A DNA stretch of 43,632 bases from Salinicola sp. (GTDB lineage Bacteria; Pseudomonadota; Gammaproteobacteria; Pseudomonadales; Halomonadaceae), in NCBI GenBank assembly GCA_002695065.1, contig NZNW01000077.1, positions 1-43,632 of the forward strand, read 5' to 3'. The translations under genes and the position numbers were made by a program. Below the pieces are notes generated by a model, which worked only from the letters and a program-made list of their open reading frames with translations, did not search any database and was not told the DNA's origin. Positions within the stretch are counted from its first letter, which is position 1. Every line of letters starts with the position of its first letter. This document shows, one piece after another, positions 5,850 to 43,632 of this stretch.

Positions 5850-7268
5850 ATGGCGCGAGCAAAAGCGCTGCAACACGCCTGGCAAGCCTTCGACAGCGGC
5901 GATTTCCTGCGACAGCTCGACGCCCGTGTCGCGGTGCGCAGTGAAAGCCAGGAAACGGGGCGCGACGGTGAGCTGCGCCGTTACCTGACCGACTTCGTAA
6001 TCCCCGAGATCGAGAAGCTGGGGTTCACCTGGGAGATCGTCGGCAACCCCGTCGGTGGCTTCGGGCCGTTCCTGCTGGCCGAGCGAATCGAGGCCGATGC
6101 GGCTTTGACGCTGCTCACCTATGGCCACGGGGATGTAGTGCGGGGCTACGATGCGCAGTGGCGGGAAGGGTTGTCGCCCTGGCATATCGTGGTCGAGGGC
6201 GAACGCTGGTACGGCCGCGGCACCGCCGACAACAAGGGCCAGCACACGCTCAATTTCGCGGCGCTGGCGAGCGTCATCGACGCGCGTGGCGGAACACTCG
6301 GCTATAACGTCAAACTGATCCTGGAGATGGGGGAGGAGACCGGCTCACCGGGCTTGAAGGCGGTCTGCGAAGCCAATCGCGAGCGCCTGGCAGCGGATCT
6401 GTTCATCGCCTCCGACGGGCCGCGGCTGTCGGCGGACTCGCCGACGCTGTTTCTCGGTTCCCGCGGGTCGTTCAATTTCGATCTGCGCCTGCGCGCCCGC
6501 GATGGCGCGCATCATTCGGGCAACTGGGGGGGCGTGCTCTCCAATCCGGCCACCCGGCTCGCCAACGCCTGGGCGACGCTGGTCGATGCCCACGGCAAGA
6601 TCCTGATCGAGGGCCTGCGCCCGCCGGCGATTCCTGCGCCGGTTCGCGACGCCGTTGCCTCGCTCGAGGTCGGGGCGACACCGGGGGATCCGGCGATCGA
6701 TACGAACTGGGGCGAACCGGGCCTGCTGCCGGCGGAAAGGCTGTTCGCCTGGAACACCCTGGAGCTGCTGGCGATCAAGGCCGGCAACCCGGAGGCGCCC
6801 GTCAATGCCATTCCCGGCGAGGCATATGCCCATTGCCAGCTGCGCTTCGTGGTCGGCAGTGACCGCGAGCGCTTCCTCGAACACCTGCGTCGGCATCTCG
6901 ACGCTCACGGCTTCGAGGATGTGGAGGTCAGCAGCGCGCGGATGTCGCAGATGAATGCCACGCGACTCGATCCGTCGGATCCGTGGGTCCGCTGGGCGCT
7001 GGCATCGATGCATGAGTCCAGCGGCAAGACACCGACGCTGCTGCCCAACCTGGGCGGCTCGCTGCCCAACGATGTCTTCGCCGAGACGCTGGGACTGCCG
7101 ACGCTGTGGGTGCCGCACTCCTACCCGGCCTGCTCCCAGCACGCCCCCGACGAGCACGCATTGGCGAGCATCCTGCGGGAAGGTCTGGGTATCATGGCCG
7201 GGTTATGGTGGGATCTGGCCGAGCAGGGTCGAGACATCAATAAGGAGCGCGAACGATGGCACCGCTGA
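5850..7268 (+). CDS. M20 family metallopeptidase (first of two)
   Basis: 472-residue zinc-dependent exopeptidase or amidohydrolase of the M20 (ArgE/DapE/dipeptidase) family. Metal-binding and catalytic motifs are in order: YGHGDVV (His ligand and catalytic Asp), YGRGTADNKGQ (bridging Asp), EMGEETGS (catalytic Glu and ligand Glu), and a late QHAPDEH that supplies the last His ligand. An insert around residues 195-320 matches the M20 dimerisation lid. A GAGGAGA site lies 6 bases before the ATG. Sixty bases downstream of the last transporter gene and overlapping the next peptidase by 13 bases, it probably hydrolyses whatever the transporter imports. The family alone does not fix the substrate. 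Confidence 0.9.
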   Translation: MARAKALQHAWQAFDSGDFLRQLDARVAVRSESQETGRDGELRRYLTDFVIPEIEKLGFTWEIVGNPVGGFGPFLLAERIEADAALTLLTYGHGDVVRGYDAQWREGLSPWHIVVEGERWYGRGTADNKGQHTLNFAALASVIDARGGTLGYNVKLILEMGEETGSPGLKAVCEANRERLAADLFIASDGPRLSADSPTLFLGSRGSFNFDLRLRARDGAHHSGNWGGVLSNPATRLANAWATLVDAHGKILIEGLRPPAIPAPVRDAVASLEVGATPGDPAIDTNWGEPGLLPAERLFAWNTLELLAIKAGNPEAPVNAIPGEAYAHCQLRFVVGSDRERFLEHLRRHLDAHGFEDVEVSSARMSQMNATRLDPSDPWVRWALASMHESSGKTPTLLPNLGGSLPNDVFAETLGLPTLWVPHSYPACSQHAPDEHALASILREGLGIMAGLWWDLAEQGRDINKERERWHR

Positions 7269-37592: not shown

Positions 37593-38081
37593 TCAGGCAC
37601 GGATCGTTCGTGGCTCCCGCAGCATCACGTCGTCGCCGTCGAAGGCGACCGACCAGTGGCGCAGACACTGACCGGGATCTTCCAGGCACTGGCCATCTCT
37701 CAGCCGAAAATGGTGCTTGTAGATCGGTGAGGCAACCACCAGCTCCCCTGCGAGGTCGCCAATAATGCCGCGGCCGATCACGTTGGCGCTGGAAAACGGA
37801 TCGTGGTTGTCCACGGCGTAAAGCTCACCGACGGCTTCGGGTCGGGTAGACAGCTCACCGACGGGCTCGGGTCGGGTAGACAGCTCACCGACGGCTTCGG
37901 GTCGATTAGACGACTCACCGGCCGCTTCGGGCCGACCCGGTAGATAGAAAATCGCGATCTGATGGCCCTCGTGCCAGGCGACGACACCAGAGCCAGCGAC
38001 CAGATCCTCCCGCGAGCAGAGGCGGACACGCTTTTTTCCCGCCACGGCGAGTTCAGAGGCTTCGAGAATGGCAGTGCTCAT
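37593..38081 (-). CDS. nirD: Nitrite reductase (NADH) small subunit NirD, with repeat insertion
   Basis: 162-residue NirD, a Rieske-fold subunit without the usual cluster ligands that pairs with NirB. Core text is recognisable: VRLCSREDLVAGSGVVAWHEGHQIAIFYLPG, then ELYAVDNHDPFSSANVIGRGIIGD, VVASPIYKHHFRLRDGQCLEDPGQCLRHWSV. Between these, about 40 residues of a ten-residue repeat (RPEAVGELST type, four units) interrupt a loop where family members usually read straight through; NirD is normally about 105-120 residues. The ATG overlaps the nirB stop by four bases. The reading frame is intact, so the enlarged protein is probably made. Confidence 0.93.
   Translation of the reverse strand: MSTAILEASELAVAGKKRVRLCSREDLVAGSGVVAWHEGHQIAIFYLPGRPEAAGESSNRPEAVGELSTRPEPVGELSTRPEAVGELYAVDNHDPFSSANVIGRGIIGDLAGELVVASPIYKHHFRLRDGQCLEDPGQCLRHWSVAFDGDDVMLREPRTIRA
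37822..37941. repeat. 30-bp minisatellite within nirD
   Basis: Four 30-bp units: 37822-37851, 37852-37881, 37882-37911 and a diverged fourth 37912-37941. Units one to three differ by only a few bases. Because 30 is a multiple of three, copy changes keep nirD in frame. The unit encodes RPEAVGELST on the minus strand. Confidence 0.92.
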
Positions 38082-40696
38082 GAGGTAATCTCCGTAGCCA
38101 GGGCGGCGATTTCTTCTTCTCTAGCCGGGCGCGGTTGATCGCGCTCGCTGACCGCAATGATGTCCGGATCGCTGCGCTGGTCGTTGACGAAAGTCCGGAA
38201 ACGCTTGAGCTTGTCCGGATCCTTGAGCGCGTTGGCCCATTCACACTCGTACTGATCCACCACGTGCTGCATCTGGGCCTCGAGTTCATGCCCCAGCCCC
38301 AGGCTGTCCTCGAGGATGACCGCCTTGAGATAATCGAGCCCGCCATCGAGGTTCTCGCGCCACACCGAGGTACGCTGAAGGCGATCGGCGGTGCGGATAT
38401 AGAACATCAGCAGCCGGTCGATGATGCGCAGCAGTTCGGTATCGTCGAGATCGGTGGCGAACAGCTCGCCATGGCGTGGGCGCATGCCGCCATTGCCGCA
38501 CACGTAGAGATTCCAGCCGTGCTCGGTGGCGATCACGCCGATGTCCTTGCTCTGGGCTTCGGCGCACTCCCGGGTGCAGCCGGAGACGGCGAACTTCAGC
38601 TTGTGCGGCGAGCGCAGCCCCTTGTAGCGATTCTCGATTCTCAGTGCCATGGCCACGCTGTCCTGCACGCCGTAGCGACACCAGGTGTTGCCGACGCAGG
38701 ATTTCACGGTGCGGGTGGATTTGCCGTAGGCGTGGCCGGTCTCGAAGCCGGCGGCGATCAGCTCGCCCCAGATCTCCGGAAGTTCGTGCAACTGGGCGCC
38801 GAACAGGTCGATACGCTGGCCGCCGGTGATCTTGGTGTAGAGATCGTACTTCTTGGCCACCGCGCCGATGGCGAGCAGCTTGTCCGGAGTGATCTCCCCA
38901 CCGGGAATACGCGGCACCACCGAATAGGTACCGTTCTTCTGCATATTGGCCATGAAGGTATCGTTGGTGTCCTGCAGCGGCACCAGCGAGGGGTTGGTGA
39001 TCGGCGCGTTCCAGCACGAGGCCAGGATCGAGGCGACGGCCGGCTTGCAGATATCGCAGCCCAGCCTTCCCTTGCCGTGACGGGCATGGAGCGCCTCGAA
39101 ACTTTGAATGCCCTCGACCCGCATGAGGCCGTAGAGCTCCTGGCGGGTATAGGCGAAGTGCTCGCAAAGGCTGCGGTCGACTTCGACCCCGCGACTTTCC
39201 AGCTCATGCTCGAAGACCTGCTTGAGCAGTGCCGTGCAGCCGCCGCAGCCGGTGCTGGCCTTGGTCTCGGCCTTGAGCGTGCCGAGGTCGGTGCAGCCGG
39301 CGTCGACCGCCTGGCAGACAGCCCCTTTGGAAACGTTGTGGCACGAGCAGATCGTGGCACTTTCCGGCAGGGCATCCGCGCCCAGCAGCGGCGCGCCCTC
39401 GCCCTGGGGCAGGATCAGGCTGGCCGGATCGGCGGGCAGCGCGATGCCGTTCTGCACGTACTGCAACAGCGTGTCGTAGCCGCTGTTGTCGCCCACCAGC
39501 ACGGCGCCCAGGGCGCGCTTGCCGTCGCCGGAGACCACCAGTCGGCGGTAGCCGTGGCCGGCTTCGTCGATGAAGCGGTAGCTCACGGCGCCTTCGGTCG
39601 ACGCATGCGCATCGCCGATGGAGCCCACGTCGACGCCAAGCAGCTTGAGCTTGGTCGACATGTCGGCGCCGCTGAACGGCTCGCCGCTATCGACCAGGCA
39701 GCCGGCTGCCGTGCGCGCCATGGTGTAGCCGGGGGCGACGAGGCCGAAGACCTGGCCGTTCCACAGCGCGCATTCGCCGATGGCGAAGATGTCCGGATCG
39801 GAGGTGTGGCAAGTGTCGTCGATCACGATACCGCCACGCTCCCCGATCTCCAGCCCGCAGTCGCGGGCCAGCCGGTCCTGCGGACGGATGCCGGCCGAGA
39901 ACACGATCATGTCGGTCTCCAGCCACTCGCCGTCGGCGAAGTTCATGCGGTAGCGGTGGGTGTCGCCAGCGACAATCTCGCTCGTCGCACGATCGAGATG
40001 CACCTGCACGCCCAGCGCTTCGATCTGACGCTTGAGGGCCTCGCCGCCCTCGGCATCCAGCTGCACCGGCATCAGGCGGGGGGCGAACTCGACCACGTGG
40101 GCCTCGAGCCCCAGCGACTTGAGCGCGTTGGCGGCCTCGAGGCCCAGCAGGCCGCCCCCGACCACCACGCCGCGGCGGATGTCCCGATCTTCCAGCGACA
40201 ACGCCGCCTCGCGGATGCGGTCGAGATCGTCCAGCGTTCGGTAGACCAGGCGGGCATGGCCGCCATCGTCGGTCTTTGGCGTCGGTATCGGCGGCACGAA
40301 GGGGTAGGAGCCGGTCGCCAGAATCAGCTGGTCGAAGTCGTGCAGGCCGCGATCGGTGGCGACGTTGCGGGCGTGGCGATCGATCGAAGTGACCGCTTCG
40401 CCCAGGCGCAGGTCGATACCGTGACGTGCGCAGAAATCCGCTTCGCCCAGCGCCAGCGCATCGGCGTCGCTGCCGCTGAAGTAGTCGGACAGGTGCACGC
40501 GGTCGTAGGCGCGATGGCGCTCCTCGCCGAAGACGGTGATCGCGTAGCGATGGTGAGCACCGCGCTCCACCAGTTGCTCCAGGCAGTAGTGGCCGACCAT
40601 GCCGTTGCCGACCACCAGCAGGCGGGGCTTGTCGGTCGTCGTGGCCGGGGCGTGTGTCGTGATAGGGGAAGGTGTCGTACCAGGAGCGTGAGTCAT
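38078..40696 (-). CDS. nirB: Assimilatory nitrite reductase (NADH) large subunit NirB
   Basis: 872-residue siroheme nitrite reductase, converting nitrite to ammonium with NADH in the cytoplasm. Domains in order: FAD/NAD reductase (residues about 25-330; GNGMVGHYCLEQL, VVVGGGLLGLEAANALK), NirB-type linker, BFD [2Fe-2S] domain with CSCHNVSKG and STGCGGC (about 447-485), a second BFD-like segment (CEHFAYTRQELY to CDICKP), then the ferredoxin-like and siroheme/[4Fe-4S] domains. The siroheme cluster ligands fit C-x5-C (CVGNTWC) and C-x3-C (CTREC) around residues 664 and 705. Ribosome site GGAGGAAG 6 bases upstream; the ATG overlaps the flavoprotein stop by four bases. Confidence 0.96.
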   Translation of the reverse strand: MTHAPGTTPSPITTHAPATTTDKPRLLVVGNGMVGHYCLEQLVERGAHHRYAITVFGEERHRAYDRVHLSDYFSGSDADALALGEADFCARHGIDLRLGEAVTSIDRHARNVATDRGLHDFDQLILATGSYPFVPPIPTPKTDDGGHARLVYRTLDDLDRIREAALSLEDRDIRRGVVVGGGLLGLEAANALKSLGLEAHVVEFAPRLMPVQLDAEGGEALKRQIEALGVQVHLDRATSEIVAGDTHRYRMNFADGEWLETDMIVFSAGIRPQDRLARDCGLEIGERGGIVIDDTCHTSDPDIFAIGECALWNGQVFGLVAPGYTMARTAAGCLVDSGEPFSGADMSTKLKLLGVDVGSIGDAHASTEGAVSYRFIDEAGHGYRRLVVSGDGKRALGAVLVGDNSGYDTLLQYVQNGIALPADPASLILPQGEGAPLLGADALPESATICSCHNVSKGAVCQAVDAGCTDLGTLKAETKASTGCGGCTALLKQVFEHELESRGVEVDRSLCEHFAYTRQELYGLMRVEGIQSFEALHARHGKGRLGCDICKPAVASILASCWNAPITNPSLVPLQDTNDTFMANMQKNGTYSVVPRIPGGEITPDKLLAIGAVAKKYDLYTKITGGQRIDLFGAQLHELPEIWGELIAAGFETGHAYGKSTRTVKSCVGNTWCRYGVQDSVAMALRIENRYKGLRSPHKLKFAVSGCTRECAEAQSKDIGVIATEHGWNLYVCGNGGMRPRHGELFATDLDDTELLRIIDRLLMFYIRTADRLQRTSVWRENLDGGLDYLKAVILEDSLGLGHELEAQMQHVVDQYECEWANALKDPDKLKRFRTFVNDQRSDPDIIAVSERDQPRPAREEEIAALATEITS

Positions 40697-42012
40697 GCCG
40701 CTTCCTCCAGTTTATCAGTGGCGTTGTCGGCCAGAAGTCGTGTGGCGTCATCGGCGCCGAACAGCAGTACGTCGCGGCAGGCGCTCAGGTCGTGGGCTTC
40801 ACGGGCGTGATGGAAATAGCCGGGGCCGGCGATGGTATCGCCGTAGAGCACCGCGCCGACGAGACGATCGTCGTGCAGCAACAGCCGACGGTAGTCGCCG
40901 TTCTCGGCATCGGCGTAGGTCAGCGTCTCGTGCCCTGGCGGAATCTCGACCGGGCCGAAGGCAAAGATCGAGATATCCGCGACCTTGAGACGGGTTGCAC
41001 ACGGGATCTCGCGGTAGGGGGCGCTGCGCTGGCCGCAGAGCCGAGCGGCGAGCACATCCACCTGTCGCCAGATCGGGTCGACCAGACCGTAGGTGTTGCC
41101 CTCGAACTCGCAGCAATCGCCGAGGGCGTGAATGGCGGGGTCGCTGGTCGTCAGCGTCGCGTCGACGACGATACCGCGGGCGACATGCAATCCGGACTGT
41201 CGGGCCAGTGCCGTATGGGGCTTGATACCGGCGGCGACCACCACGCAGTCGGCAGGCAGTCGGCGGCCATCCTCCAACCGTACCGCGACCACGTTGCCAT
41301 CGGTATCGCCTTCGCAGGCGGCCAGGTGAGCGTGGGTTTCTATGGTCAAGCCGCGGCTCTCCAGTTCGGTACGCAGCCAGCTCGCCGCCGTCTCATCCAG
41401 TTGCCGGTTCATCAAGCGCTCGCTGCGCTGCAGCACGCTGACGGTCAGCCCTCGCTTGCGCAGACCTTCCGCCGCCTCCAGCCCCAGCAGCCCGCCGCCG
41501 ATGACGACCGCACGGCTACCCACGGGTCGCGACGTGAGCCAGGCGGTATCGACGAAATCGCGGAACCCGCCGACATTGCCCAGCCGAATGCCGGGAACGT
41601 CCGGCAGGGCAGGGCGCGAGCCTGTCGCCAGTACCAGGCGGTCGTAAGCCACCTGTTCGCCCCGGTCGGTCCGGATCCGGCGTCGTCGCCGGTCGATGGC
41701 GACCACCCGTTCGCCCAGCCGCCATGTCACGCCCGCTGTCGCGACGTCCTCGAGGGGGAGGTCGAGTGCGCTGCGTTCGATCTCGCCGGCCAGCCACGGC
41801 GACAACAGGATGCGGTTGTAGGCCGGCGAGGCTTCCTCGCCGATGACCGTGATGCGGTCGGGGCGGTCCGGACGTTTCAGCAGCGCGCTCAGCAGGCGAT
41901 GGCCGGCCATGCCGTTGCCGACGATCACCAGATGCGCCGGGGCGCTGCAGGTATCCGAGGGCGGGTTCCGGGAAGCGTTCGGAAACCCGTTGAGGGAATC
42001 GTTCTGGGACAT
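40693..42012 (-). CDS. NirB-like FAD/NAD(P) oxidoreductase, probable nitrate reductase electron-transfer subunit
   Basis: 439-residue flavoprotein with two dinucleotide-binding motifs: GNGMAGHRLLSALL (FAD, about residue 30) and VVIGGGLLGLEAAEGLRKRG (NAD(P), about 170), plus an ATGSRPALPDVPG segment, an AIHALGDCCEF FAD motif near 300 and a NirB-type C-terminal domain. It closely mirrors the first third of the adjacent NirB but lacks the Fe-S and siroheme domains. Size and position match the NADH oxidoreductase subunit of assimilatory nitrate reductase (NasC of Klebsiella, NasB of Bacillus), so it likely feeds NasA. GGGAGAG precedes the ATG. First gene of the operon, with a regulated leader. 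Confidence 0.82.
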   Translation of the reverse strand: MSQNDSLNGFPNASRNPPSDTCSAPAHLVIVGNGMAGHRLLSALLKRPDRPDRITVIGEEASPAYNRILLSPWLAGEIERSALDLPLEDVATAGVTWRLGERVVAIDRRRRRIRTDRGEQVAYDRLVLATGSRPALPDVPGIRLGNVGGFRDFVDTAWLTSRPVGSRAVVIGGGLLGLEAAEGLRKRGLTVSVLQRSERLMNRQLDETAASWLRTELESRGLTIETHAHLAACEGDTDGNVVAVRLEDGRRLPADCVVVAAGIKPHTALARQSGLHVARGIVVDATLTTSDPAIHALGDCCEFEGNTYGLVDPIWRQVDVLAARLCGQRSAPYREIPCATRLKVADISIFAFGPVEIPPGHETLTYADAENGDYRRLLLHDDRLVGAVLYGDTIAGPGYFHHAREAHDLSACRDVLLFGADDATRLLADNATDKLEEAA

Positions 42013-42065
42013 GAGGTCTCTCCCATCCGGCGTCGTGGCCGCCCCGTCAGGTGCTGGCCAATAAC

Positions 42066-42117
42066 GAAAAAGGCGCCTGATGACACGAAGCGGGGCTTCG
42101 CGGCATCAGGCGCCTTT
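42066..42117 (-). terminator. Leader attenuator of the flavoprotein-nirBD operon
   Basis: On the minus strand a large composite hairpin: a 14-bp perfect outer stem (AAAGGCGCCTGATG / CATCAGGCGCCTTT), a small internal loop and a 6-bp inner stem (CGAAGC / GCTTCG) with a GGG loop, then TTTTT directly after the hairpin in minus-strand direction. It ends 54 bases before the flavoprotein ATG, so it is an intrinsic terminator in the 5' leader. Readthrough would be needed for expression. Confidence 0.88.
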
Positions 42118-42158
42118 GCCTGAAATTCGAACAGTGTCTGTCTCGCTGTCATGCGGTG

Positions 42159-42182
42159 GATGCCGGCGGCATTGCGGGCATC
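42159..42182 (-). promoter_or_regulatory. ANTAR-type RNA hairpin P2 (minus-strand leader)
   Basis: Minus-strand RNA: 6-bp stem GATGCC / GGCATC, a C-C mismatch, two more pairs, and a six-base loop AATGCC. Loop position 1 is A and position 4 is G, the rule for ANTAR (NasR/NasT) recognition hairpins. It lies 41 bases before the leader terminator. Confidence 0.75.
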
Positions 42183-42191
42183 GTTTCGCGT

Positions 42192-42215
42192 CGACGCGAC
42201 CGCCGTTGGTCGTCG
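42192..42215 (-). promoter_or_regulatory. ANTAR-type RNA hairpin P1 (minus-strand leader)
   Basis: Minus-strand RNA: 5-bp stem CGACC / GGTCG closing a six-base loop AACGGC (A at position 1, G at 4), with a further CGA / TCG pairing across a 2-base bulge. It begins within a few bases of the predicted transcription start near 42218 and precedes P2 by about 10 bases. Confidence 0.75.
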
Positions 42216-42228
42216 TCACGTCGTAGGA

Positions 42229-42245
42229 AGCGAAAAGCGTGCCAG
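42229..42245 (-). promoter_or_regulatory. Sigma-54 promoter of the flavoprotein-nirBD operon
   Basis: Minus-strand CTGGCACGCTTTTCGCT. It matches the sigma-54 consensus YTGGCACG-N4-TTGCW with one mismatch (TCGC for TTGC), and GG and GC are spaced exactly 10 bases apart. Predicted start is near 42218. Confidence 0.8.
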
Positions 42246-42309
42246 CGCGATCCCGATATCGTCATTTCAGCGAGATGAGGGGACTCTTCGGGCGCCGGGA
42301 TATCGAGTT

Positions 42310-42357
42310 TGCGCAACATCGGTGCGCAGGCGGCGATGGCTGCACCAATGCGGGCCG
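42310..42357. promoter_or_regulatory. Two NtrC-like binding sites 31 bp apart
   Basis: TGCGCAACATCGGTGCG (42310-42326) and TGCACCAATGCGGGCCG (42341-42357) each match about 10 of the 14 specified bases of the NtrC consensus TGCACYAWWWTGGTGCA. Their starts are 31 bases apart, about three helical turns, as in classical NtrC enhancers. They lie between the two divergent sigma-54 promoters, some 90-140 bases from each predicted start, and could serve both. Confidence 0.6.
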
Positions 42358-42443
42358 TAGCGCCCGTCGACGCGTGGGGCGAAGCCGACGACGCCATGGG
42401 TCGAATGCGGCAAATCCTTGTTCTTCGGCTTTTCTGGCGATGT

Positions 42444-42459
42444 TGGACCCGTTCTTGCC
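42444..42459 (+). promoter_or_regulatory. Sigma-54 promoter of nasA
   Basis: TGGACCCGTTCTTGCC. GG and GC are spaced by exactly 10 bases, with TGG at -24 and the full TTGC at -12; the middle of the -24 element departs from consensus. Predicted transcription start is near 42470, one base before hairpin P1. Confidence 0.72.
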
Positions 42460-42470
42460 TGTTTCAGGTC

Positions 42471-42486
42471 ATCAAATGAAGTTGAT
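42471..42486 (+). promoter_or_regulatory. Six-base-loop hairpin P1 of nasA leader
   Basis: Stem ATCAA / TTGAT (5 bp) with six-base loop ATGAAG. Position 1 is A as in ANTAR hairpins, but position 4 is A rather than G, so this copy is weaker than the other three. It starts at the predicted 5' end of the nasA transcript. Confidence 0.5.
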
Positions 42487-42512
42487 CAGAGAGTCCTCGT
42501 CCCGATGGACAC

Positions 42513-42538
42513 GATCGATGCCAACGGCGGCATCGATC
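42513..42538 (+). promoter_or_regulatory. ANTAR-type RNA hairpin P2 of nasA leader
   Basis: Perfect 10-bp stem GATCGATGCC / GGCATCGATC closing a six-base loop AACGGC (A at position 1, G at 4). The loop is identical to that of P1 in the divergent leader. It precedes the leader terminator by about 70 bases. Confidence 0.78.
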
Positions 42539-42608
42539 CAGCCAGGGCGATGAGATTATCGATAACGCGCGGACGGGCAGTCATCTGTTTCGCCGCCAGC
42601 AGGCAACG

Positions 42609-42649
42609 AGGCCTGACGTCACCTTGAGTGATGTCAGGCCTTTTGCGTT
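42609..42649 (+). terminator. Leader attenuator of nasA
   Basis: A 14-pair stem (one G-T wobble) from AGGCCTGACGTCAC to GTGATGTCAGGCCT with loop CTTGA, followed by TTTTGCGTTTTT. It ends only a few bases before the GGAGG ribosome site of nasA, so transcription must read through it for expression: a classic nas-type attenuator. Confidence 0.9.
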
Positions 42650-42663
42650 TTTGGAGGCTCGCA

Positions 42664-43632
42664 ATGTCAGATCGGCAGGCCAAGGGCCGTTCGATTACCG
42701 AAGACACCGCTACCGGTCCGGCGATTACGGACGCCACCACCTGTCCTTATTGCGGCGTCGGGTGTGGGGTCGTCGTCGAGCACGACGGTGAACGGGTGAG
42801 CGGCGTCGAGGGCGATCGGACGCATCCGGCCAATTTCGGCCGGCTCTGCGTCAAGGGTAGCGCCCTTCACGAGACCCTGGGCGACGAAGGGCGCTTGCTG
42901 CGCCCCCGTGTCGACGGCAAGTCGGTGGACTGGACGACGGCGCTGGACGCCGTGGTCACCCGGTTGGCGTCGACGCAGCGCGAGCACGGCCGGGGCGCGG
43001 TAGCGGCGTATCTCTCCGGCCAGCTGCTGACCGAGGACTATTACGTCGCCAACAAGCTGTTCAAGGGCTTTCTCGGCACGCCGCATGTGGATACCAATTC
43101 ACGGCTCTGCATGGCCTCGGCAGTGGCGGCCTACAAGCGCGCCTTCGGGGCCGATGCCGTGCCGTGCTGCTACGAGGACCTGGAGTGCGCCGAGCTGGTG
43201 GTACTGGCGGGTTCCAATCTGGCCTGGAACCATCCGGTACTCTATCAGCGCCTGAAGGCGGCCAAGGCGCGTAATCCATTGATGCGGGTGGTGGTGATCG
43301 ATCCGCGCGTGACCGACAGTTGCGAAATCGCCGATCTCTACCTGGGGCTCGAGCCGGGCAGCGATGCGCGGCTGTTCAATGGCCTGCTGGCGTGGATGGA
43401 GGAGAAAGGACGGGTCGATCGCCGTTATCTGGAGCGCCACACCCAAGGATTCGAGGCGGCACTGAACGCCGCCCGCGAGGACGACACCCGCCTCGCGGCC
43501 ATCGCCCGCGACTGCGATGTCGATCTCGAACGGTTGGAGACCTTCTTCTACTGGTTCGCGACCCATCTGCACGTGGTGACGCTCTACTCCCAGGGCATCA
43601 ACCAGTCGAGCAGCGGCACCGACAAGTGTCAG
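42664..43632 (+). CDS. nasA: Assimilatory nitrate reductase catalytic subunit, 5' part
   Basis: The first 323 codons are in the window; the gene continues beyond the edge. This is a molybdopterin oxidoreductase that reduces nitrate to nitrite. The N-terminal [4Fe-4S] motif is CPYCGVGCGV with the fourth Cys in GRLCVKG; next come YLSGQLLTEDYYVANKLFKGFLGT, NSRLCMASAV (where dissimilatory relatives differ), LAGSNLAWNHPVLY and VVVIDPRVTDSCEIADLYLGL, all typical of the NasA/NarB group. GGAGG lies 6 bases before the ATG. No signal peptide, so cytoplasmic. Transcribed divergently from the flavoprotein-nirBD operon under a sigma-54 and attenuator-controlled leader. Confidence 0.95.
   Translation, partial: MSDRQAKGRSITEDTATGPAITDATTCPYCGVGCGVVVEHDGERVSGVEGDRTHPANFGRLCVKGSALHETLGDEGRLLRPRVDGKSVDWTTALDAVVTRLASTQREHGRGAVAAYLSGQLLTEDYYVANKLFKGFLGTPHVDTNSRLCMASAVAAYKRAFGADAVPCCYEDLECAELVVLAGSNLAWNHPVLYQRLKAAKARNPLMRVVVIDPRVTDSCEIADLYLGLEPGSDARLFNGLLAWMEEKGRVDRRYLERHTQGFEAALNAAREDDTRLAAIARDCDVDLERLETFFYWFATHLHVVTLYSQGINQSSSGTDKCQ

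Follow-up and report, generated by a model that had tools for sequence, protein, structure and literature searches.

The gap between nasA and the flavoprotein-nirBD operon of a Salinicola draft genome very probably holds two back-to-back antitermination leaders that respond to nitrate or nitrite and share one NtrC enhancer. The parts, their conservation, their covariation and their co-occurrence with ANTAR genes are read from sequence. Our window, a stretch of 43,632 nucleotides, is one entire contig of this genome (4.68 Mb, 96% complete), and the gap spans positions 42013-42663, with nasA on the plus strand and the operon on the minus strand. The first-pass annotation had described it as a mirror-image control region with common NtrC sites, two sigma-54 promoters and two leaders; its observation is confirmed, and its interpretation is supported.

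The gap and its flanking genes

The genes on either side, and the ribosome-binding site of nasA, are as follows.

37593..38081, minus strand: nirD, nitrite reductase small subunit (TIGR02378, 85 bits, cut-off 74.65)
38078..40696, minus strand: nirB, nitrite reductase large subunit (TIGR02374, 1046.8 bits, cut-off 578.35)
40693..42012, minus strand: NirB N-terminal-like pyridine-nucleotide/FAD oxidoreductase of 439 aa, which opens the left operon (Pfam Pyr_redox_2, 1e-58)
42653..42657, plus strand: nasA ribosome-binding site GGAGG, read from the sequence (ATG at 42664)
42664..43632, plus strand: nasA, catalytic subunit of the assimilatory nitrate reductase, truncated by the contig end (Molybdopterin and Fe4S4 domains)

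The start of nirB overlaps the end of the flavoprotein gene, whose own match to TIGR02374 is partial and under the cut-off. The flavoprotein is 94% identical to that of Salinicola acroporae, 92% to that of S. socius and 86% to that of S. corii, the nearest named relatives. For nasA, NF041323 (NasA) is the top of 22 families, yet under its cut-off because the gene is truncated. We also observed in nirD (37822-37931, minus strand) an in-frame 30-base tandem repeat of 3.7 copies, which gives a ten-residue repeat (TRPEAVGELS-like) placed after the N-terminal part and before residues 85-154, where the Rieske-type match lies.

The elements within the gap are listed below, where P1 denotes the early (5') hexaloop hairpin of a leader and P2 the last one, which overlaps the terminator.

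42069..42117, minus strand: left intrinsic terminator, 22 pairs with one mismatch, T-rich tail
42107..42122, minus strand: left P2, caggc-AAAGGC-gcctg, loop starts at 42117; excludes the terminator
42159..42182, minus strand: left middle hexaloop hairpin, gatgccCgc-AATGCC-gcCggcatc, loop starts at 42173 (hairpin search)
42197..42212, minus strand: left P1, cgacc-AACGGC-ggtcg, loop starts at 42207 (hairpin search, covariation)
42229..42244 (read 42244-42229), minus strand: left sigma-54 promoter TGGCACGCTTTTCGCT (pattern match)
42310..42326, no strand: NtrC-like site A, 9/12 positions
42341..42357, no strand: NtrC-like site B, 31 bp from site A, 9/12 positions
42444..42459, plus strand: right sigma-54 promoter TGGACCCGTTCTTGCC (pattern match, weak)
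42513..42538, plus strand: right P1, gatcgatgcc-AACGGC-ggcatcgatc, loop starts at 42523 (hairpin search, covariation)
42600..42615, plus strand: right P2, caggc-AACGAG-gcctg, loop starts at 42605; overlaps the terminator
42608..42642, plus strand: right intrinsic terminator, 15 pairs with one mismatch

Read 5' to 3', both strands carry a GG-N10-GC sigma-54 element, C:G-closed A1/G4 hexaloop hairpins and a terminator, so that the proposed mirror order stands for these parts, but the mirror is inexact. The left P1 loop lies at about +12 of the predicted transcript, whereas about 54 nt separate the right P1 from its predicted start (promoter-P1 distance 79 nt on the right versus 37 on the left). 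A hairpin at the right transcript start, as had been claimed, must therefore be given up, since the actual P1 is further in and the six-base-loop hairpin closest to the start, with loop ATGAAG, has no G4, is absent from the predicted folds and appears, by eye, impossible in the related locus L004. The count of two hexaloop hairpins per leader is correct for the right side, but the left side has a third, the middle hexaloop, which is also found in L003, occurs in L005 with an altered loop and was not detected in L004. The right sigma-54 element is weak, with four of eight scored positions besides GG and GC, and L004 and L005 carry TGGCCCCATTCTTGCT at its position.

On each side the 3' arm of P2 is part of the 5' arm of the terminator, and P2 and the terminator are therefore mutually exclusive; on the left, the 5' arm of the terminator starts with the P2 loop and takes in the 3' half of P2. 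In predicted folds of the full leaders the terminator forms (on the left with a rearranged P1), and in those of leaders shortened before the 3' arm of the terminator P1 and P2 form. C-G-closed A1/G4 hairpins number three on the left and two on the right, against means of 0.037 and 0.049 in 2000 dinucleotide shuffles, and the observed numbers were reached by none of the shuffles on the left and by 0.2% on the right. The same search found no such hexaloop hairpins on the opposite strands of both leaders. The C:G closing pair was itself a search criterion, and its presence in the window hairpins is hence a matter of choice; a search without it recovered four of these five and one additional hairpin. 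An Rfam match to mir-2766 was rejected as a chance fit to the palindrome of the right P1.

Regulators, relatives and the probable enhancer

A genome search for nasST or nasR, suggested by the first-pass annotation, gave a single ANTAR match in this 96% complete genome: a 430-aa protein with an N-terminal NIT domain (3.9e-51) and a C-terminal ANTAR domain (3.2e-21), which matches Klebsiella NasR (4akk, 6e-50). By its domains and this match the protein is NasR, and control by NasT in this genome was rejected because the sole ANTAR match carries NIT. Aligned to 4akk, with the numbering mapped by eye, R340, K347 and R366 are kept, and K345 is replaced by R, W362 by Y and N373 by S; the available part of the Klebsiella NasR study indicates that R is tolerated at K345 (PMC7496416). 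NtrC (747.7 bits) and RpoN (480.5 bits) are also encoded, both above their cut-offs. Together with the conservation of both leaders, these regulators favor the joint nitrogen-status and nitrate/nitrite control that had been proposed, as far as sequence can indicate it.

On contig C97, nasR precedes a gene for a NarK-family transporter, and a third leader lies between them.

L001 1169-1301, minus strand: narK leader between nasR and narK, with three hexaloops, one near the promoter and two forming a compact pair with a spacing of 26 nt

A sigma-54 element is followed there by the hexaloops AAAGGC, AACGAC and AACGGC, the last of which lies, by eye, inside the 5' arm of the terminator. R1, a 52-position model of promoter plus P1, includes the left leader (50.5 bits) and the narK leader (42.0 bits) among its own sequences, and its recovery of both is therefore built in. 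The right P1, with its longer promoter-P1 distance, fits it poorly (11 bits, E 0.25). Across the genome R1 gave no further strong match, the next (25.3 bits) lying inside a gene. A candidate fourth leader at G000:C66:5196 (R1 E 0.01) was rejected, as it lies inside a 689-aa reading frame judged by eye to encode a trimethylamine-dehydrogenase-like oxidoreductase. Similar weak R1 matches occur in five genomes of the same genus. In two relatives (L181 and L183), nasR, narK, nasA and the flavoprotein gene all lie within about 10 kb, and in G001 some 23 kb separate nasR and the flavoprotein gene; the separation of nasR-narK from nasA-flavoprotein here (contigs C97 and C74) may reflect assembly breakage.

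Flavoprotein matches were obtained in 67 of 117 related genomes, and the upstream DNA was read in 66, our own included, as 30 loci of that search and 36 of 40 additional stretches (G088 was left out). nasA is divergent in 36 of these 66 loci, again counting our own, all of them in the window's family (f1). An ANTAR gene is present in 33 of the 36 genomes: NasR in 18, called by adjacent NIT and ANTAR matches, and NasT in 15, called by the absence of NIT there. Five of the 15 NasT were checked, and all have a receiver plus ANTAR, with an NMT1-like gene next in line, which fits nasS. The accessible text of a study on Halomonas describes NasR and NasST as nearly mutually exclusive (PMC8014003). 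On the flavoprotein side, P2 plus terminator was found in 33/33 of the divergent loci whose genome has an ANTAR gene versus 0/3 of the others; the corresponding counts are 28/33 versus 1/3 on the nasA side and 28/33 versus 0/3 for both sides together (Fisher's test, 1.4e-4 left, 0.09 right and 0.008 both sides, for species that are not independent). The five ANTAR-positive divergent loci that lack the nasA-side structure are G016, G061, G071, G048 and G026. The single nasA-side positive in an ANTAR-less genome (G051, with a palindromic ATCGAT loop) is probably due to chance. The three ANTAR-less loci fall in two genera (g15 and g19) that also hold a positive, and thus represent at least two separate absences. 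The expected tie between leaders and ANTAR proteins is borne out in that the flavoprotein-side leader is absent where the ANTAR gene is absent. In the 30 loci with a non-divergent nasA, the flavoprotein strand carries a hexaloop in 14 of the 26 that have an ANTAR gene and in 0 of the 4 that have none; outside the divergent order the leader is thus frequently missing or located elsewhere. In G010, a relative of the same genus that has no flavoprotein match at 1e-60, hexaloop hairpins occur on both strands of possibly the same gap (L179, about 6035-6560).

All three ANTAR-less loci retain a TGGCAC-type sigma-54 element on the flavoprotein side, although that of G053 is very near the estimated gene start and its placement is uncertain, and two of the three have a TGGCCC-type element on the nasA side as well. 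An NtrC-like pair at 31 or 32 bp is present in G053 and G051; G064 has no 31-bp pair, its NtrC-like sites being unpaired. The two layers of control thus appear to separate naturally, as three relatives without ANTAR gene and leaders keep their sigma-54 elements. These three loci (L012, L105 and L106) keep a divergent nasA along with the sigma-54 elements, with no leader seen.

The P1 stem covaries. In 35 promoter-P1 sequences, a set that includes narK leaders and loci of the Rfam narK RNA, 98.3% of 175 cells are paired and 44 are changed on both sides, versus 12.1 in shuffles, and every slid register gives 57.1% pairing or less. The left P1 alone is 97.9% paired, with 22 both-side changes versus 7.0 in shuffles, and the right P1 alone 95.7%, with 18 versus 4.6; in the left alignment the promoter-proximal hairpin was entered for five leaders that also offered a middle hairpin. 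The closing C:G and A1/G4 are invariant in the P1 set, but are also its selection rule. Among 28 leaders in which both were found, the left P1 is exactly 37 nt from the promoter in 18 and 34-51 nt in all.

It could be supposed that these hairpins are ordinary terminators or chance inverted repeats unconnected with ANTAR proteins, given that the region is rich in palindromes and that the hexaloop rule also fires at the palindrome in G051. We regard this as extremely improbable in view of the shuffle and opposite-strand controls, of two genera with positive members in which leaders and ANTAR gene are missing together, and of the position of the hairpins between sigma-54 promoters and genes.

The enhancer was sought with the NtrC pattern TGCACY-N5-RGTGCA. 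Measured from its centre, site A precedes the predicted left start by about 100 bp and the predicted right start by 152 bp; site B precedes them by about 131 and about 121 bp, respectively. A score of 9/12 was also reached by 85 of 500 shuffles of the window centre, and this score and the weak match of the right sigma-54 element count against our explanation, as do the five divergent loci lacking the nasA-side structure, the non-divergent loci that have an ANTAR gene but no flavoprotein leader and the missing 31-bp pair of G064. Across 33 loci 53 NtrC-like sites reach 9, versus 17.7 in shuffles. In 15 representatives the mean best pair score is 17.9 at 31 bp and at most 16.1 at other spacings from 17 to 69; the maximum of 60 shuffles is 14.7, a value that many real spacings also slightly exceed. 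The 31-bp spacing is best or tied best in 13 of the 15 and among the top three in 14, and the fifteenth has 32. NtrC enhancer sites are classically spaced by about three helical turns. The putative NtrC pair, in one copy per locus, is the dominant conserved signal, and the common sites of the first-pass annotation are in this respect upheld. Alternatively, both leaders might answer to NasR while their promoters have separate enhancers, the central pair serving just one of them. The centre does contain other, weaker NtrC-like sites, and four of the five loci with only a left leader keep a 31-32 bp pair (G016, G071, G048 and G026); nevertheless, the dominance of one pair per locus at this spacing, and its location in the window 100-152 bp from both predicted starts, make such an arrangement unlikely.

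We infer the transcript starts, the binding of NtrC and NasR and the direction of control. Under nitrogen shortage, phosphorylated NtrC bound at sites A and B would activate both sigma-54 promoters. Each transcript would fold P1 early and then reach the intrinsic terminator. Without nitrate or nitrite the terminator would form and the transcript would end; with either present, NasR would bind P1 and P2, and P2 would occupy the loop and arm that otherwise build the 5' arm of the terminator, allowing read-through into nasA to the right and into flavoprotein-nirBD to the left. With the narK leader beside nasR in the same regulon, uptake, nitrate reduction and nitrite reduction would be induced together, and the region would explain how Halomonadaceae coordinate these three steps.

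Spacing of the hexaloops

In the window the loop-to-loop distance between P1 and P2 is 90 on the left and 82 on the right, with linkers between the stems of 74 and 61 nt. Published linkers are far shorter, 5-12 nt in eut (PMC3369931) and 2-25 nt as used for actinobacteria (PMC8164766), and extending the EutV linker by 20 nt abolished antitermination in vitro (PMC8934654), according to the available parts of these sources; both window leaders depart from the short linker of known ANTAR leaders. The same holds among 61 leaders taken, with no promoter demanded, from the 33 ANTAR-positive divergent loci, which come from related genomes and are not independent. In none of the 61 do the 36 nt preceding the P2 loop contain a C-G-closed hexaloop of at least four pairs. 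A canonical close P1 beside P2 was rejected, as loose rules recovered a close partner in only 3 of the 61, as 3-4-pair stems. A 5-pair C-G-closed hexaloop lies 37-230 nt upstream of P2 in 48 leaders (median of the most distal, 82), and 13 have none up to 260 nt upstream. The lack of close C-G-closed partners of at least four pairs counts against the explanation we favor, since the EutV work, in its accessible sections, would predict such leaders to be non-functional (PMC8934654). Halomonadaceae leaders would accordingly have another geometry, a linker that folds to join the loops, or a relay through the middle loop.

Alternatively, P2 might be the only NasR target and P1 have a separate role, for instance as a landing site or 5'-end stabiliser, so that these would be single-hexaloop antiterminators. 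The long and variable P1-P2 distance without a canonical close partner, the 13 leaders without a 5-pair C-G-closed loop 37-260 nt upstream, and the one hexaloop that the EutV structure study, in its available part, defines as the minimal binding motif (PMC8934654) would all agree with this. Against it, the P1 stem covaries, the left P1 is fixed relative to the promoter in most leaders, and NasR needs both hairpins for full affinity according to the accessible text of PMC7496416; we consider a P2-only target rather doubtful.

We propose, tentatively and with slightly less than even confidence, a class of long-range ANTAR leaders, in which NasR or NasT would load on a 5' hexaloop and act at a terminator hexaloop some 40-230 nt on, across a foldable linker and sometimes a relay hexaloop. 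Two such leaders on one NtrC enhancer would form a bidirectional two-signal gate in which the sensor (NasR or NasT) is exchanged and the RNA targets are kept. The published spatial rule rests on EutV, and the 61 leaders here appear not to follow it. If true, the long-range reading would break that rule, add a class of ANTAR RNAs missed by present models and Rfam, and provide a natural system for studying how an antiterminator bridges two hairpins.

Comparison with known systems

The nearest Rfam model is the narK RNA (RF03032), which reportedly comes from Weinberg 2017. At E 0.001 it has matches in 21 of 398 genomes from the phylum, in 16 of them above cut-off, and all 21 have an ANTAR gene, versus 155 of 398 overall (1e-9, with 16 of the 21 in one family). 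Of 36 listed matches, 30 loci (L135-L164) were read; 28 of these begin with GG-N10-GC, and 28 have a C-G-closed A1/G4 loop at position 33-41, features shared with the Salinicola leaders. Their next loop follows 20-25 nt on in 18, 32-44 nt on in four and is lacking in eight, and in this they differ from the Salinicola leaders, the left of which scores 24 bits under a cut-off of 43.2 and the right of which is not among the matches. RF03032 thus looks largely like a sigma-54 promoter plus a two-hexaloop ANTAR P1-P2 target, seemingly the compact form, which suggests the nature of Rfam's narK RNA; a literature search, with subscription titles mostly out of reach, found no statement tying this RNA to ANTAR proteins. 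Thirteen of 16 genomes of family f21, presumably Pseudomonadaceae, have two or three narK-RNA matches each. Bradyrhizobium NasT also has several targets, as the available part of PMC6759348 reports. Control of more than one leader, which the first-pass annotation had singled out as new, therefore has precedents, although the twin leaders here stand.

Twenty stretches adjoining nasR-like genes in other families were compared as well: five have two or more fitting loops, and 15 have one or none. The loop distances of the five are 25, 29, 29, 39 and 36+26 nt (L226, L227, L228, L230 and L240), and the 25-29 nt of L226-L228, whose genomes we take to be enterobacterial, contrast with the 90 and 82 of the window. 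In Klebsiella oxytoca, one nasF leader precedes one operon. The likeness to that system is otherwise close, with a NIT+ANTAR NasR, a P1P2 hexaloop motif, P2 opposed to the terminator and nitrate-dependent read-through, and the C:G closing pair was also found there by NasR SELEX (PMC7496416, accessible text). Pseudomonas nalA/nirBD shares the sigma-54/NtrC start and ANTAR antitermination before nirBD, but uses NasS-NasT where Salinicola has NasR, and the available part of the report makes no mention of a mirrored pair (PMC12830290). Enterococcus eut/EutV resembles our leaders in its dual hexaloop, A1/G4 and a P2 overlapping the terminator (PMC3369931, PMC8934654), and differs in the length-sensitivity of its short linker, again as far as the accessible portions of these papers extend. 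Divergent paired leaders were not encountered in a literature search to which most subscription papers were closed. We suggest that the mechanism is very likely of a known type, that of Klebsiella nasF and Pseudomonas nalA, set in a new arrangement, whose mirrored leader pair and stretched geometry look new.
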